Source: Fusobacteriota bacterium | GTDB taxonomy: Bacteria; Bacillota; TC1 | Length of the DNA stretch: 64,000 nt | NCBI GenBank assembly: GCA_022615965.1 | Contig: JAKEGG010000007.1 | Location: forward strand, 92,067-156,066 | Direction: 5' to 3' | Shown here: in pieces, positions 32,009 through 59,021 of the stretch | Numbering within the stretch: position 1 is the first letter of the stretch | Layout: each line of letters begins with the position of its first letter | Translations under genes and position numbers: made by a program | Notes under the pieces: model-generated | Told to the model about the DNA's origin: nothing | Databases searched by the model: none | Seen by the model: the letters and a program-made list of their open reading frames with translations, nothing else

Positions 32009-35000
32009 TTAAGAAAAAAGTGATAGCTGCTCACTCTCTGGCAAGCCATCTAATAAATTTAGTTTTTTCATTTCTTCAATTAAAGTATTATTGATTTTAC
32101 ATCTCCTTCTTAAATCATCTATGGAGATAAATTTTTTCTTAGCTCTTTCAATTATTATTGATTCACTAGCTTTTTCTCCTAAGCCTGGTATAGCAGAAAA
32201 TGGTGGTAACAGTTGATTATTTACTATTTTAAAGGATTTAGCCTCTGAATTATAGAGGTCTATCGGTAAGAAAATAACTCCTCTCAAATACATTTCATAA
32301 GCAATTTCCAACAAATTTTTTAAATCCTTCTCTCTGGCATTCAAATTGCTTTCAGCGTCATACTTTTTCAGATTTTTACTTATTTCTTCTTTATTTTTAA
32401 ATAGGTTATAGTCAAAGCTGTCACCACGAACACTAAAATAGCTGGCATAGAAAGCTTCCTTGTGATTAATTTTGTAATAACCTAGACGAAATGCCATTAT
32501 TACATATGCAGTAGCATGAGCCTTTGGAAACATATAGGTAATCTTATTACAGGAATCAATATACCATTTAGGAACTTTTTTTTCTAGCATCTTTTCTATA
32601 TATTCTTCTTTAAGATTTTTACCTTTTCTTACATCCTCCATTATTTTAAAAGCTACAATATCCTCAAGACCCTTATTTTGAAGGAAAACCATGATATCAT
32701 CTCTGGTTGAGATTGCTTCCTTTAGTTTTACCTGCCCACTAGTGATAAGATCCTTGGCATTGTTGACCCATACATCTGTTCCATGAGAAAAGCCACTTAT
32801 TCTAATCAAATCAGAAAACACCGCAGGCTTGGTATCTAATAGCATTTTTCTCACAAATTTTGTGCCAAACTCTGGCAAGCCTAAACTACCAGTATCAACA
32901 AAATCTTCACATAATTCTAATGCCTCAGGGCTTCTGAATAATGATAAAACCTTCTGATCATCTAAAGGTATATCCTTCACATTAATATCAGTCATTTTTT
33001 CCAGATATTTAATCATTGTTGGATCATCATGTCCTAATAAGTCTAATTTAACCAGACAGTCATTTATTGAATGATAATCAAAATGTGTAGTAGTTATTTC
33101 TGATGTCACATCATCAGCTGGTTTTTGGACAGGTGTAAAGTCCAGGATATCTACATGGTTTGGTACTATTACCAAACCACCTGGATGTTGACCAGTAGTT
33201 CTTTTAACACCTACACAACCGTTAGCTAAAGCAGAAATCTCAATAGCCTTAGGCTCATAATTAATCATTTCTTCCTCAAAGTATTTTTTAACAAAACCAG
33301 CTGCTGTTTTATCAGCAACAGTACTTATTGTTCCTGCTTTAAAAACATTACCCTTACCAAATAATTCCTCTGTATATTTATGGATATTAGGCTGATACTC
33401 CCCAGAAAAGTTTAAATCAATATCAGGTATTTTATCTCCTTTAAAACCTAAAAAGGTTTCAAAAGGTATATTGAAGCCATCTTTACTGTATTTTCCCCCA
33501 CAAAGAGGGCAATTTTTATTTGGCATTTCGATTCCACAATCATAATCGCCATCTATAAATTCACTATGCTGACATTTTGGACAAACATAGTGAGGCAATA
33601 ATGGATTTACTTCTGTAATACCCATCATAGTTGCTACTAAAGAAGAACCAACAGATCCTCTAGAACCAACTACATAACCGTCTTCATTAGATTTTTTTAC
33701 CAATTTATGGGCAATTAAATATAGTACGCTAAAGCCATGAGTGATAATAGAATTAAGTTCTTTATCCAACCTTTCTTGGACTATAGCCGGCAATGGTTTG
33801 CCATATATTCTTTGTGCATTATTTAAAGTTATTTCCTTCACCTGATCTTCAGCACCTTCAATCACAGGAGTATGAAGTCCATCAGGTATCGGTTGAATAT
33901 CTTCAATCATAGCTGCAATCATTCTTGGATTATTAACGACAATATCTCTGGCTATGTTCTCATCCAGATAACAAAACTCGTCTAGCATTTCTTGGGTGTT
34001 TCGGTAATAAAGCTCTGGCTGAATAACTTCCTTATAGCCTTTACTTTTCATTAAAATAGCTCTGAAAATACTATCTTCTTTATCTAAGAAGTGTACATCA
34101 CCAGTTGCTACTACAGGTTTTTGGCATCTTTCTCCTATTTCAACTATCTTTTTATTAAAATCGATCAATTCCTCATATCCATTTACTAGCTTATCTCTGA
34201 TCATAAATTCATTATTAGAATTTGGCTGGACCTCTAAATAGTCGTAAAACTCAGCTATTGCCATTAAATCATCATCTGTTTTTTTACTGACTATACCACT
34301 ATAGAATTCACCTGCTTCACAAGCACTTCCTAAAATCAGGCCTTCCCTGTTTTCTAATAAAAGGCTTTTAGGAATCCTGGGTACACGATAAAAATAGTTT
34401 AGGTGAGATTGACTAACTAAGCGATATAGATTTTTTAAGCCCTTTTGGTTTTTCACCAAAATGATGATGTGATAGGCTTTTCCTTTATGATCCGGCTCTT
34501 TGATATCATCATACATATAGCCTTCTAGCCCATAGATAACCTTGATGCCATGTTTTTTACTTAAAGCATAGGCTTCCGGATATATCTGAACCACACCATG
34601 ATCTGTTAAAGCAACTGTATCATGCCCATATTCATTTAGTCTATTAAATAATGAATCAAGTTCAAGATTAGCATCTAAAAAGCTCATCTTGGTATGAAGA
34701 TGAAGTTCAACTCTCTTTAACTCTGATTCGTCTGATTTTATTTCTTTCTTATAGCGATTGATGCTAGTACCAATCAACGCAAAATCATTCATATAACGGT
34801 CAAATTCGATATTACCTTTAACTTTTAGCAGCATATTATTATTGATCTCTGGTATTATTTTGTTTTTTCCTATGAATATTTTACAGGCCATGCCATTTGT
34901 CTTGGAAATAAGCTTAAAGGATATCATAGTTTTATCATTTGAGAAGGTTTTATATTCAACATCTATTGCTTTACCAAAAAGAACTGTTTTTTCAATATTT

Positions 35001-35671
35001 TCTCTGATCGTTCCTGCTTCAACTCCAGCTTCCATAATAATTTTACCATAGATGATCAAAGAATCCTCTGTAGTCTGTTTGTTAATAACATTGTCTTGTG
35101 ATTTTTTGTTCTTTTCCACATTTATTCTTTGCTGTGTTATTGCTTCATTTTTTTTCTTTTCTACATCCCTTAAAATTTCAAGCTGGCTTTTAGTATTATC
35201 GACCAACTTTAATTGAACTTCTTTTAAGTTTGGAAAAGAATAAATAAGGAGCTCTTCAATAAAGTCCACTATGCCCCTTTGGTCATATCTGTTCTTTTGA
35301 AACTCTGAATTAAGTAGCATTTGAACTTCATCCATATCCTGATCATAAAAGATTGTCTTCATATTTAAAAAAGGATATTCCTTAAATATGCGATAATTTA
35401 GAAAATCGATATAATTTGCTAGAAACTTTTTATTTTCCAGGTTATTTCTTAAACTTAAATTTACTTTATATGGATAAAGGTGTTCTTCAGCTGATTTTTC
35501 AAAGTTAGAAATTAGATCTACCTCAGGTATATCATCTGTGAAACAGCTAAAGTAAATGCATTTTGCACCTTTATCAACAAGTACTTCACTTATATTGATT
35601 GCTAATATTTTTTTTTCTATATCTTCTGTCAGGTTTAAGCCTTTAACAAAATCTATCCAATTATTATTCAT
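32009..35671 (-). CDS. polC: DNA polymerase III PolC-type alpha subunit, apparently lacking the internal exonuclease domain
   Basis: RVELHLHTKMSFLDA PHP; HYVCPKCQHSEFIDG; FETFLGFKGDKIPDIDLNFSGEYQP; GVKRTTGQHPGGLVIVP; C-terminal LSLFS. 1220 aa. Confidence 0.97.
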   Translation of the reverse strand: MNNNWIDFVKGLNLTEDIEKKILAINISEVLVDKGAKCIYFSCFTDDIPEVDLISNFEKSAEEHLYPYKVNLSLRNNLENKKFLANYIDFLNYRIFKEYPFLNMKTIFYDQDMDEVQMLLNSEFQKNRYDQRGIVDFIEELLIYSFPNLKEVQLKLVDNTKSQLEILRDVEKKKNEAITQQRINVEKNKKSQDNVINKQTTEDSLIIYGKIIMEAGVEAGTIRENIEKTVLFGKAIDVEYKTFSNDKTMISFKLISKTNGMACKIFIGKNKIIPEINNNMLLKVKGNIEFDRYMNDFALIGTSINRYKKEIKSDESELKRVELHLHTKMSFLDANLELDSLFNRLNEYGHDTVALTDHGVVQIYPEAYALSKKHGIKVIYGLEGYMYDDIKEPDHKGKAYHIIILVKNQKGLKNLYRLVSQSHLNYFYRVPRIPKSLLLENREGLILGSACEAGEFYSGIVSKKTDDDLMAIAEFYDYLEVQPNSNNEFMIRDKLVNGYEELIDFNKKIVEIGERCQKPVVATGDVHFLDKEDSIFRAILMKSKGYKEVIQPELYYRNTQEMLDEFCYLDENIARDIVVNNPRMIAAMIEDIQPIPDGLHTPVIEGAEDQVKEITLNNAQRIYGKPLPAIVQERLDKELNSIITHGFSVLYLIAHKLVKKSNEDGYVVGSRGSVGSSLVATMMGITEVNPLLPHYVCPKCQHSEFIDGDYDCGIEMPNKNCPLCGGKYSKDGFNIPFETFLGFKGDKIPDIDLNFSGEYQPNIHKYTEELFGKGNVFKAGTISTVADKTAAGFVKKYFEEEMINYEPKAIEISALANGCVGVKRTTGQHPGGLVIVPNHVDILDFTPVQKPADDVTSEITTTHFDYHSINDCLVKLDLLGHDDPTMIKYLEKMTDINVKDIPLDDQKVLSLFRSPEALELCEDFVDTGSLGLPEFGTKFVRKMLLDTKPAVFSDLIRISGFSHGTDVWVNNAKDLITSGQVKLKEAISTRDDIMVFLQNKGLEDIVAFKIMEDVRKGKNLKEEYIEKMLEKKVPKWYIDSCNKITYMFPKAHATAYVIMAFRLGYYKINHKEAFYASYFSVRGDSFDYNLFKNKEEISKNLKKYDAESNLNAREKDLKNLLEIAYEMYLRGVIFLPIDLYNSEAKSFKIVNNQLLPPFSAIPGLGEKASESIIIERAKKKFISIDDLRRRCKINNTLIEEMKKLNLLDGLPESEQLSLFS

Positions 35672-54785: not shown

Positions 54786-57700
54786 CTAGCTGTTCCTGTG
54801 CTCCAAATTCTTAAAGGCCTTAGACAACATCAACTTCAACCTATTTATCTGATTAACCTCACTAGCACCAGGATCATAATCTACAGCCACAATATTAGCA
54901 TCCCTGTAACGCTTATTAAGCTCCTTGATAACACCCTTACCAGTAATATGATTAGGTAAACAACCAAAAGGCTGAACACAAACGATATTATCTACACCAC
55001 TATCGATCAACTCAACCATCTCACCTGTCAGGAACCAACCCTCACCCATACTATTACCTAAAGATAAAATAGGCTTAGCTCCTTCAGTTAAAGAGCCGAT
55101 AGTAGCCTGTTCATGAAAATTCTTAGACTTACGAAGAGCATTTCTAGCTGAACGCCTATAGATTTCCAAAGCACTAATTGCAAAATTAGCAATACTCTTA
55201 TCCTTCTTTTTACCTGCTAGCTGATCATATCTGAATACATTGCCATACAAAGAGTACAAGAAGAAATCAAGTAAATCAGGAACCACAACCTCAGCTCCCT
55301 CCTTTTCCAAAAAGTCCACCACATTATTATTAGCAAAAGGATGAAACTTCACTAAAATCTCACCAACAACTCCAACCCTTGGCTTTTTAACACCGTTACG
55401 AGGTATTGCATCAAACTCCTTAACGATCTTCTCCATATTACCAGAAAACTGCCTGAACTTACCATTAAAAATAGAATCATTACACTTCAAGACCCATTTT
55501 TCATAAAGCTCATTTGTAGAACCAGGTACCAACTCATAAGGCTTGGTAGCCCTAACAACCCTCAATAAAATATCCCCATAAACAACTGCCATTAAAAACC
55601 TATGCAAAAAGCCTAAAGTAATCTTAAAACCAGTTGACTTCTCCAAATTGCTAGAAGCAGTAACAGGAATGATTGGAACCTGAGGAAAACCAGCATCAGC
55701 TAAAGCTTTAGTCATCAGTGCAATATAGTTAGTAGCACGGCAGCCACCACCAGTCTGAGTCATTAAAACAGCCACTTTATCAACATCATACTTACCGCTC
55801 TTTAAAGCCTCAAGAACCTGACCAATAACTACTAAGGTAGGATAACAAGCATCATTATTAACAAACTGCAAACCTAAATCCATCCCCTTATTACTGATCT
55901 CATCTAACACCTCAAGCTTATAGCCCTGAGCCCTAAAGGCTTCCTTTAAAAACTGAAAATGAATAGGTGACATCTGTGGAGATAACAAAGTATAATCTTC
56001 CATTCCTGCCTTAAACAAAGGTGTCCTAAGTACTTCACCTTTAACTTCATCACGAACAAATTTAGAACGCTCATTCATTGCAGCAATCAAAGACCTGGCC
56101 CTTATTCTCGCAGCACCTAGATTATTGATCTCATCAATCTTGATCAAAGTATAAATCTTTCCATGCCTGTCTAAAATCTCTTTAACCTGATCTGTAGTAA
56201 TAGCATCAAGACCACAACCGAAAGAAGTAAGCTGAACCAATTCAATATTTGGCTCATTTTTCACAAACTCAGCTGCATTATATAACCTAGAATGATAAAC
56301 CCACTGATTAACAACCCTTAGATCATCCTTATCAGCAGCTAGCTTAGCAATAGATTCCTCTGATAAAACCACCAAACCAAGCTGAGTCAACATCTCAGGA
56401 ATACCATGATTGATTTCGGGATCAACATGGTAAGGACGTCCAGCAAGAACTACCCCTCTCATTCCTCTTTCTTTCATTTTACTAACAGTATCACGACCCT
56501 TTTGCTCCACATCTGCCTTATACCTTGCTAGCTCAGCATAAGCCTTGTCAAGAGCCAGATTGATCTCCTTCTTACTAATATCATAATGGTCCTTCAAAGA
56601 ATCATAAAGCCTCACAGCCATCTTCTTCTGATCATAAATAGGTAAAAATGGATGAATAAACCTGATATTCTCACTTCTGATTTCTTCAAGGTTATTCTCG
56701 ATAACTTCTGGATAACTAGTTACAATAGGACAATTATAGTGGTTTTCTGCACTTTCCTCCTCTTTGATATCATAAGGAATAGAAGGATAAAAAATAGTGT
56801 TAACACCCTTTTTCAGAAGATTCATTACATGGCCATTAGTAATCTTAGCTGGATAACACATGGATTCAGAAGGAATAGATTCCATACCAGACTCATAGAT
56901 CTTCTTAGAACTCCTGTTAGAAAGTTCGACCCTAAATCCCAGTTCAGTAAAAAATGTAAACCACAAAGGATAATGTGCATAAATATTTAATGCTCTCGGT
57001 ATACCTAATACCCCACGTCTGGCAATTGACTTATCTAAAGGATGGTAACCTCTAAAAAGCCTGTTATAGGTATAGTCATAAAGATTAGGCAACTTATTTT
57101 TAGCATCCTCTGCTATACCAGCACCTCTTTCACACCTGTTACCAGAAACAAAAAAATCACCAGTAGGGAAAGTGCTGATCGTCAACAAACAATTATTACC
57201 ACAAAGACCACATCTTCTCATATCATTATCATAATTAAATTTATTTAAATCCTCTTTTGGCAATAAAGAAGAATCCTCATCTGAACTAAACCTTTCCTTA
57301 GAAATCAAAGCCATACCAAAGGCACCCATGATTCCAGCAATATCTGGTCTTATTACCTCTCGTTCAGTAATCAGTTCAAAACTCCTTAAAACAGCATCAT
57401 TATAAAAAGTACCACCCTGAACTACGACCTTATCTCCTAGTTCTGCAGTATTCTTAAGCTTAATAACCTTATATAAGGCATTTTTAATAACCGAATAAGA
57501 AACACCAGCAGAAATATCTCCTACACTAGCTCCATCCTTTTGAGCCTGTTTGATTTTAGAATTCATAAAAACCGTACATCTGGTACCTAAATCAACTGGG
57601 CTATCGGCAAATAAAGCCTTCTTGGCAAACTCCTTTACTGGGAGAGACAAAGAATTAGCATAAGTCTCAATAAAGGAACCACAGCCAGAAGAACAAGCTT

Positions 57701-59021
57701 CATTTAACATTATACTGGTAATAACCCCATCCCTTACCTGTAAGGACTTCATATCCTGACCACCAATATCTAAAATAAAGTTAACTCCAGGCTGAAAGAA
57801 GTTGGCTGCCTTAAAATGAGCCACTGTTTCAATCTCACCTTCATCAACCTGTAAAGCAGCTTTGATCAATCCCTCGCCATAGCCAGTAACTCCAGCTCTG
57901 GATATCTTAAGATTTGGAACTTCCTCATAAAGTCTGATCATATTCTTAACAATATTGGTCAATGGCTTACCCTCATTACTGCCATAATATGACCATACCA
58001 AAGAACCAGCACTATCAATCACTGCCATTTTGCTAGTAGTTGAACCTGCATCAATACCCAGGAAATAAGGTTCCTGACTTTCTTCAAAAGAAACTACTTT
58101 GACCTTAGCCTTATTATGCCTACTTGTAAACTCAGCATATTCCTCCTCACTTTTAAATAAAGGAGGTAAGGTACTAATATTTTCTGAAGTCAGATCCTTC
58201 TCAGAAAAATCCTTGAGAATATTATTTATTTTATGTAGCTTTTCTTCTTTTTTAACTAACTCTGCGGTGCCTAAAGCTACAAAATACTGTGAATTATCAG
58301 GAAAAATAGTATCTTCAGGAGTAAGCTTTAAAACATCGATAAATCTATTTCTAAGCTCAGACATAAAGGTCAAAGGACCACCTAAGAAAGCCACCTTTCC
58401 TTTGATTGGCCTGCCACAGGCCAGACCACTAATTGTCTGATTCACCACAGCTTGAAAGATGGAAACAGCAATATCAGAAATAGCAGCGCCCTCATTGATC
58501 AATGGTTGTACATCGGTTTTAGCAAATACCCCACATCTTGAAGCAATAGGATAAATAGTCTTATATTTTTTAGCCATTTCATTAAGCTCATCGACCTCAA
58601 TCTTCATCAGCTGTGCCATTTGATCAATAAAAGCACCTGTACCACCGGCACAAACCCCATTCATTCTTTGCTCATTGCTGGCTCCTAAATAGGTAATCTT
58701 AGCATCCTCACCACCTAGCTCTATTGCTACATCAGTTTCTGGTATATACTTTTCAATTGCTTCAGTTAAAGCAATAACCTCCTGAACAAAAGGCAAGCCC
58801 AGCTTCTCTGACAGACCCATTCCTCCAGAACCAGTAAACATGATCTTAAAGTAATGATCAGGAAACTGCTCATTGACCTCCTTCAACATAGTGATACCAG
58901 TTTTCAAAATCTCTGAATAATGTCTTTCATATGATTTATATAAACAATTATCTTCCTCATCCACTACAACTACCTTAACAGTAGTTGAGCCAACATCCAT
59001 TCCTAAAAATAGTGTTTTCAT
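54786..59021 (-). CDS. Large fusion: two BcrA/BadF/HgdC-type activase domains + DUF2229-like + HgdB-like dehydratase region
   Basis: GMDVGSTTVKVVVVDEE...MNGVCAGGTGAFIDQMAQ...RCGVFAKTDV; GIDAGSTTSKMAVID...NEACSSGCGSFIETYA...RCTVFMNSKI; MRRCGLCGNNCLL; 1411 aa. Confidence 0.92.
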   Translation of the reverse strand: MKTLFLGMDVGSTTVKVVVVDEEDNCLYKSYERHYSEILKTGITMLKEVNEQFPDHYFKIMFTGSGGMGLSEKLGLPFVQEVIALTEAIEKYIPETDVAIELGGEDAKITYLGASNEQRMNGVCAGGTGAFIDQMAQLMKIEVDELNEMAKKYKTIYPIASRCGVFAKTDVQPLINEGAAISDIAVSIFQAVVNQTISGLACGRPIKGKVAFLGGPLTFMSELRNRFIDVLKLTPEDTIFPDNSQYFVALGTAELVKKEEKLHKINNILKDFSEKDLTSENISTLPPLFKSEEEYAEFTSRHNKAKVKVVSFEESQEPYFLGIDAGSTTSKMAVIDSAGSLVWSYYGSNEGKPLTNIVKNMIRLYEEVPNLKISRAGVTGYGEGLIKAALQVDEGEIETVAHFKAANFFQPGVNFILDIGGQDMKSLQVRDGVITSIMLNEACSSGCGSFIETYANSLSLPVKEFAKKALFADSPVDLGTRCTVFMNSKIKQAQKDGASVGDISAGVSYSVIKNALYKVIKLKNTAELGDKVVVQGGTFYNDAVLRSFELITEREVIRPDIAGIMGAFGMALISKERFSSDEDSSLLPKEDLNKFNYDNDMRRCGLCGNNCLLTISTFPTGDFFVSGNRCERGAGIAEDAKNKLPNLYDYTYNRLFRGYHPLDKSIARRGVLGIPRALNIYAHYPLWFTFFTELGFRVELSNRSSKKIYESGMESIPSESMCYPAKITNGHVMNLLKKGVNTIFYPSIPYDIKEEESAENHYNCPIVTSYPEVIENNLEEIRSENIRFIHPFLPIYDQKKMAVRLYDSLKDHYDISKKEINLALDKAYAELARYKADVEQKGRDTVSKMKERGMRGVVLAGRPYHVDPEINHGIPEMLTQLGLVVLSEESIAKLAADKDDLRVVNQWVYHSRLYNAAEFVKNEPNIELVQLTSFGCGLDAITTDQVKEILDRHGKIYTLIKIDEINNLGAARIRARSLIAAMNERSKFVRDEVKGEVLRTPLFKAGMEDYTLLSPQMSPIHFQFLKEAFRAQGYKLEVLDEISNKGMDLGLQFVNNDACYPTLVVIGQVLEALKSGKYDVDKVAVLMTQTGGGCRATNYIALMTKALADAGFPQVPIIPVTASSNLEKSTGFKITLGFLHRFLMAVVYGDILLRVVRATKPYELVPGSTNELYEKWVLKCNDSIFNGKFRQFSGNMEKIVKEFDAIPRNGVKKPRVGVVGEILVKFHPFANNNVVDFLEKEGAEVVVPDLLDFFLYSLYGNVFRYDQLAGKKKDKSIANFAISALEIYRRSARNALRKSKNFHEQATIGSLTEGAKPILSLGNSMGEGWFLTGEMVELIDSGVDNIVCVQPFGCLPNHITGKGVIKELNKRYRDANIVAVDYDPGASEVNQINRLKLMLSKAFKNLEHRNS

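Follow-up and report, generated by a model that had tools for sequence, protein, structure and literature searches.

Does the PolC of this genome truly lack its internal proofreading exonuclease and, if so, what corrects the errors of the polymerase? The question is raised by a polC gene in the window, by which we mean the whole stretch of 64,000 nucleotides analysed here. A sequence-only reading had noticed that its product is short, and had proposed that the DnaQ-like exonuclease (Exo) is missing from the PHP domain, where its insertion is the hallmark of canonical PolC.

PolCs of this architecture are already known. Timinskas et al. (2013; PMC3919608) found that 6% of PolCs are without the Exo insertion; apart from an extra copy in Thermotogae, all of these belonged to Clostridia and Negativicutes, and they occurred only in bacteria with both PolC and DnaE1, making up 16% within that setting. 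The same authors raised DnaE1 as a possible bulk polymerase in PolC+DnaE1 bacteria. A survey from 2026 describes the Clostridia as mostly having three active proofreaders (PMC12926913). The hint in the sequence-only reading that the form might be undescribed does not stand, since it was reported in 2013 and is order-wide and common in the phylum; for the lineage of the window it is ordinary.

A PolC without its internal exonuclease

The gene is an uninterrupted reading frame at 32009-35671 on the minus strand. Its product scores above the cut-offs of two PolC equivalog profiles, NF001688 (1452.5 bits, cut-off 873) and TIGR01405 (1325.3 bits, cut-off 1043), and contains the Pfam domains PHP (PF02811, residues 322-475), DNA_pol3_alpha, finger and HHH_6. 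Its features are as follows.

32009..35671, minus strand: polC, exo-less PolC-type DNA polymerase III alpha, 1220 aa (NCBIfam PolC equivalogs)
35192..35671, minus strand: N-terminal PolC domain, residues 1-160, without an exonuclease fold (AlphaFold model and Foldseek)
34754..34990, minus strand: OB-like beta domain, residues ~228-306 (AlphaFold strands; inside the 3f2b alignment)
33872..34726, minus strand: PHP domain, residues ~316-600, its nine metal ligands all present (Pfam PF02811, ligand alignment, model)
34472..34522, minus strand: loop, residues 384-400, at the Exo insertion site of other PolCs (alignments of 85, then 156 PolCs)
33407..33427, minus strand: polymerase catalytic motif PDIDLNF, residues 749-755 (invariant in 85/85 aligned PolCs)
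32015..32029, minus strand: C-terminal QLSLF, residues 1215-1219, beta-clamp-binding-like motif (sequence)

The OB identity of the beta domain is assumed from known PolC anatomy, and we likewise take QLSLF to be a beta-clamp-binding-like motif on the basis of established knowledge. Judged by its sequence, the PolC polymerase is intact, its tail is of the clamp-binding-like type, and the protein resembles a working replicase.

Only 17 residues separate the PHP ligands E383 and H401 in the window PolC, compared with about 212 in Exo-bearing PolCs; the interval singled out earlier, 34455-34560, corresponds to residues ~371-406 and includes this loop. No match to RNase_T, the Pfam model for DnaQ-type exonucleases, is found across the 1220 residues. 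Using phmmer, residues 221-1220 align unbroken to 3f2b, a construct of G. kaustophilus PolC from which Exo is absent. Against 9qpc, a full-length PolC that includes Exo, the alignment falls into two stretches, with a break at residues 389/396 that skips chain residues 432-635, the Exo domain. Exo-bearing PolCs of the same phylum are 1402-1471 aa long, with loops of 210-217 residues.

We also modelled residues 1-625 of the protein with AlphaFold, from an alignment of 23 sequences (pLDDT 83.4), and compared the model with the PDB by Foldseek. The best matches are PolC itself (3f2c/3f2b, E ~1e-41), together with further structures of Pol III alpha and PHP; among the 50 best matches there is no DnaQ-fold exonuclease, except in chains that share the Pol III alpha/PHP part. 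Two of these chains, 4gx8 and 4gx9, are alpha-epsilon chimeras, in which chain length and a sequence match at 46-306 point to the PHP as the matched part. Thus the sequence-only reading was right that the frame is unbroken, that the protein is about 200 residues shorter than usual and that it has no internal DnaQ-like exonuclease; nor did the structural check that it had proposed reveal such a fold elsewhere in residues 1-625.

Elsewhere in the window, a gene at 54786-59021 (minus strand) encodes a 1411-aa BcrAD/BadFG ATPase and DUF2229 protein of the CoA-enzyme activase type. It adjoins a plus-strand pair of PLP-dependent/threonine synthase-like genes, at the place where the GC skew changes.

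Exo-less PolCs across the phylum

We compared the window PolC with others of its phylum in two alignments, the first of 85 genes taken from its genomes and the second of 156 complete rows, in which named loci from GTDB species were added to the 85. Separately, we drew 300 genomes evenly over the phylum, all at least 90% complete except the window's own, and called PolCs exo-less by frame length or by the absence of any RNase_T domain. PolC occurs in 215 of the 300 genomes; at least 114 of these are exo-less, 85 have Exo and the remainder are uncalled. Exo-less carriers include Selenomonas, Anaerovibrio, Phascolarctobacterium, Moorella thermoacetica, Desulfosporosinus, Mogibacterium and some Lachnospiraceae, while Exo is carried by Bacillaceae, Halanaerobium, Tissierellaceae and several Clostridiaceae.

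Two variants deserve mention. BLAST coordinates had suggested that in one family (f66; 1412-1419 aa) Exo has moved to the N-terminus of PolC, a notion that we reject because in the alignment the Exo of this family lies in the PHP loop as usual. Two exo-less Selenomonas-like PolCs (L111 and L150, from G213 and G143) are 1330-1340 aa long; they have 425-435 residues ahead of the PHP domain where ~325 are usual, an excess of about 100.

The PHP site as a proofreader

The PHP-like residues that had been noticed in the protein prove to be a full set of nine metal ligands: H324, H326, D333, H358, E383, H401, C451, D525 and H527. Together they read HHDHEHCDH, in agreement with the active-type motif HHDHEH[C/H]DH (PMC12926913). 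The same motif is intact in 97 of the 97 readable exo-less PolCs, one further row (L177) being cut at a contig edge, and it is complete in the DnaE of all nine order-mates. Among Exo-bearing PolCs the motif is altered in 5 of 61, four of the five having the Bacilli-type HHDHEHCNH, with D changed to N at the eighth site; the D/E/D/H/D residues of Exo itself are invariant in 61/61. Altered PHP sites are thus more frequent in Exo-bearing PolCs (Fisher p 0.008), by a test that ignores relatedness and draws on very few lineages. In the Exo-bearing PolC of a Vallitaleaceae MAG (L197) two of the ligands differ (NHDYEHCDH); here the PHP site has decayed independently, outside Bacilli.

Gka PolC, in which one PHP residue is changed, has no PHP exonuclease activity, and the substitution D226N abolishes that activity in Mtb DnaE1 (PMC5636811).

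Since the motif is intact both in the exo-less PolCs and in the DnaE of the order-mates, PHP proofreading is the best explanation of these patterns. We consider it likely that Exo was lost long ago and that proofreading now falls to the zinc site of the PolC PHP domain together with that of a partner DnaE. The DnaQ-like insertion would have been lost cleanly from the PHP loop, in an ancestor no younger than the order; the Zn-dependent 3'-5' exonuclease site of PolC itself, whose activity is suggested by ligand conservation, would proofread; and the PHP site of DnaE may contribute, in the manner of Mycobacterium tuberculosis DnaE1 and Thermus Pol III alpha. Because 56 of the 61 Exo-bearing PolCs likewise keep all the ligands, conservation alone cannot show proofreading, and the role of the site could be structural.

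The partner polymerase

According to another explanation, PolC is proofread weakly or not at all by itself, and DnaE1 either does most of the synthesis or corrects the errors of PolC in trans with its PHP site, so that the loss of Exo from PolC could have been costless. The 2013 suggestion of DnaE1 as bulk polymerase and the confinement of exo-less PolC to PolC+DnaE1 bacteria (PMC3919608) speak for it, as does the presence, in each of the nine other members of the order, of a full DnaE whose PHP site is intact. Nevertheless, the PHP site of PolC is kept without exception in exo-less forms, and PolC retains its polymerase and clamp-type motifs, like a working replicase. We therefore regard this explanation as unlikely, although it is the strongest competitor of proofreading by the PHP site of PolC itself. 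The intact PHP site suggests that the DnaE of the order-mates is DnaE1 rather than DnaE3.

In the window assembly we find no DnaE, even as a fragment, and PolC is the only C-family polymerase found. The dnaE gene of the relatives is flanked by trmL-yfcE on one side and coaD-pyk on the other, and the window genome yields weak, paralogue-like matches only for trmL, coaD and pyk. Given that the whole block is missing from an assembly that is ~80% complete, and that all nine relatives have DnaE, we do not claim a PolC-only organism; the absence is probably a gap.

Stand-alone DnaQ-like proteins

A separate DnaQ- or epsilon-like protein might instead proofread for PolC in trans. Such proteins do exist in the order: three genus-mates (G001, G002 and G004) encode a single-domain DnaQ-like protein of 178-180 aa with DEDDh-type residues, and G009 encodes one of 247 aa. 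However, the 178-180 aa protein (on L071, L068 and L069, respectively) stops just past its exonuclease domain and has no alpha-binding tail like that of epsilon, and its gene neighbourhood shifts. The search for a stand-alone epsilon that the earlier reading had called for gives no PF00929 match in the window genome (~80% complete), nor in the order-mates G005-G008 (96-99% complete). At least 38 of the 114 exo-less genomes in the draw, 37 of them more than 90% complete and one the incomplete window genome (G000), are without any PF00929 domain, by a search that could miss a very divergent epsilon. Since about a third of exo-less genomes thus have no such domain, a stand-alone epsilon is unlikely as a general substitute, and we hold trans-proofreading of PolC by such a protein to be quite improbable. 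Among the options raised by the sequence-only reading (the PHP site, a separate epsilon-like protein or weak proofreading), the first gains from the nine intact ligands, in this protein and in 97/97 exo-less PolCs, while the second loses from the absence of DnaQ-family proteins in the window genome and in G005-G008.

Pol I-type exonucleases (PF01612) were considered as a substitute and rejected, there being no match over the cut-off in the order. One genus-mate (G001) encodes, at L040 1441-2394, a 318-aa protein whose N-terminal part is a DnaQ-like exonuclease and which seems to include a BRCT region; its gene lies near an integrase-like one, and it looks mobile rather than replicative.

Evolution of Exo

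The survey of close relatives finds the short loop in 10/10 genomes of the window's order. Across the 156 PolCs the length of the loop between E383 and H401 is bimodal, with 95 at 12-39 residues, 61 at 204-219 and nothing between; the flanks are the same in short and long forms (YGxEGYLxDD before, YHIIIL after). Presence of Exo is all-or-none, and no decayed Exo is seen. An assembly collapse or deletion, which the sequence-only reading had named as a possible undoing of its claim and which the fragmented, ~80% complete window assembly might invite, is refuted to the point of being negligible by the same short loop in all the other genomes of the order, single- and two-contig assemblies included. 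With the whole order short and loop lengths bimodal, the short loop cannot be the product of chance or of assembly collapse.

Repeated loss of Exo predicts that Exo-bearing PolCs do not form one clade and that the tree of Exo domains tracks that of the polymerase. We built the polymerase trees without the Exo columns and left them unrooted. Exo presence requires at least 7 changes on the tree of 85 rows, 4 of them forced by starred branches, and 13 changes on that of 156 rows, 8 of them forced. A single clade of Exo-bearing PolCs is rejected (AU p 0.00042), and the Exo-domain tree follows that of the polymerase (Spearman Mantel rho 0.52; 0/999 permutations as high). On these unrooted trees we favour vertical inheritance with repeated loss, although gain may have occurred instead. 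The position of the window's order, close to Syntrophomonadaceae, Desulfosporosinus, Moorella and their kin, is weakly supported. The common absence of Exo in the order comes from the comparison itself; that Exo was lost there, rather than never gained, is what we infer from it.

What had looked like an oddity is thereby explained away: the short PolC is inherited and regular. From the survey we learn further that PolCs without Exo are common in the phylum, that Exo is all-or-none, and that the PHP zinc site is kept wherever it can be read. We give about even chances to a broader picture, in which PolC and DnaE1 would replicate the DNA of many lineages of Bacillota, the whole of this order among them, neither enzyme having a proofreader of the DnaQ superfamily and proofreading depending on two zinc PHP sites only, with Exo repeatedly lost and exo-less PolC far commoner than in published surveys. 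Exo-less bacteria offer a natural test of whether a PolC replicase can do with a PHP site as its only proofreader.

Comparison with known systems

The canonical PolCs of Bacillus, Geobacillus and Staphylococcus (3f2b, 9qpc) have the same polymerase, OB and PHP domains as the window PolC, which differs in being without the DnaQ-like insertion of ~200 aa and in keeping D525 in its PHP site, where several Bacilli have N. M. tuberculosis DnaE1 (5lew, PMC5636811) has, like the window PolC, a nine-residue PHP metal site and a short loop at the Exo site; it is, however, a DnaE-type polymerase with demonstrated PHP activity, whereas the window enzyme is of the PolC type and its activity is predicted.

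The closest counterpart is the exo-less PolC of Clostridia and Negativicutes (PMC3919608), which has the same NTD-OB-PHP-Pol3-HhH order without Exo, co-occurs with DnaE1, and shows no structural difference from ours that we could find. The window PolC belongs with this subgroup: it is without Exo, comes from a Firmicutes lineage, and is paired with DnaE1, the pairing being read from the nine order-mates. What differs is frequency, with at least 114 of 215 PolC genomes exo-less here, where the 2013 figures were 6% of PolCs and 16% within PolC+DnaE1 systems; the higher share probably reflects our broader sampling of genomes.
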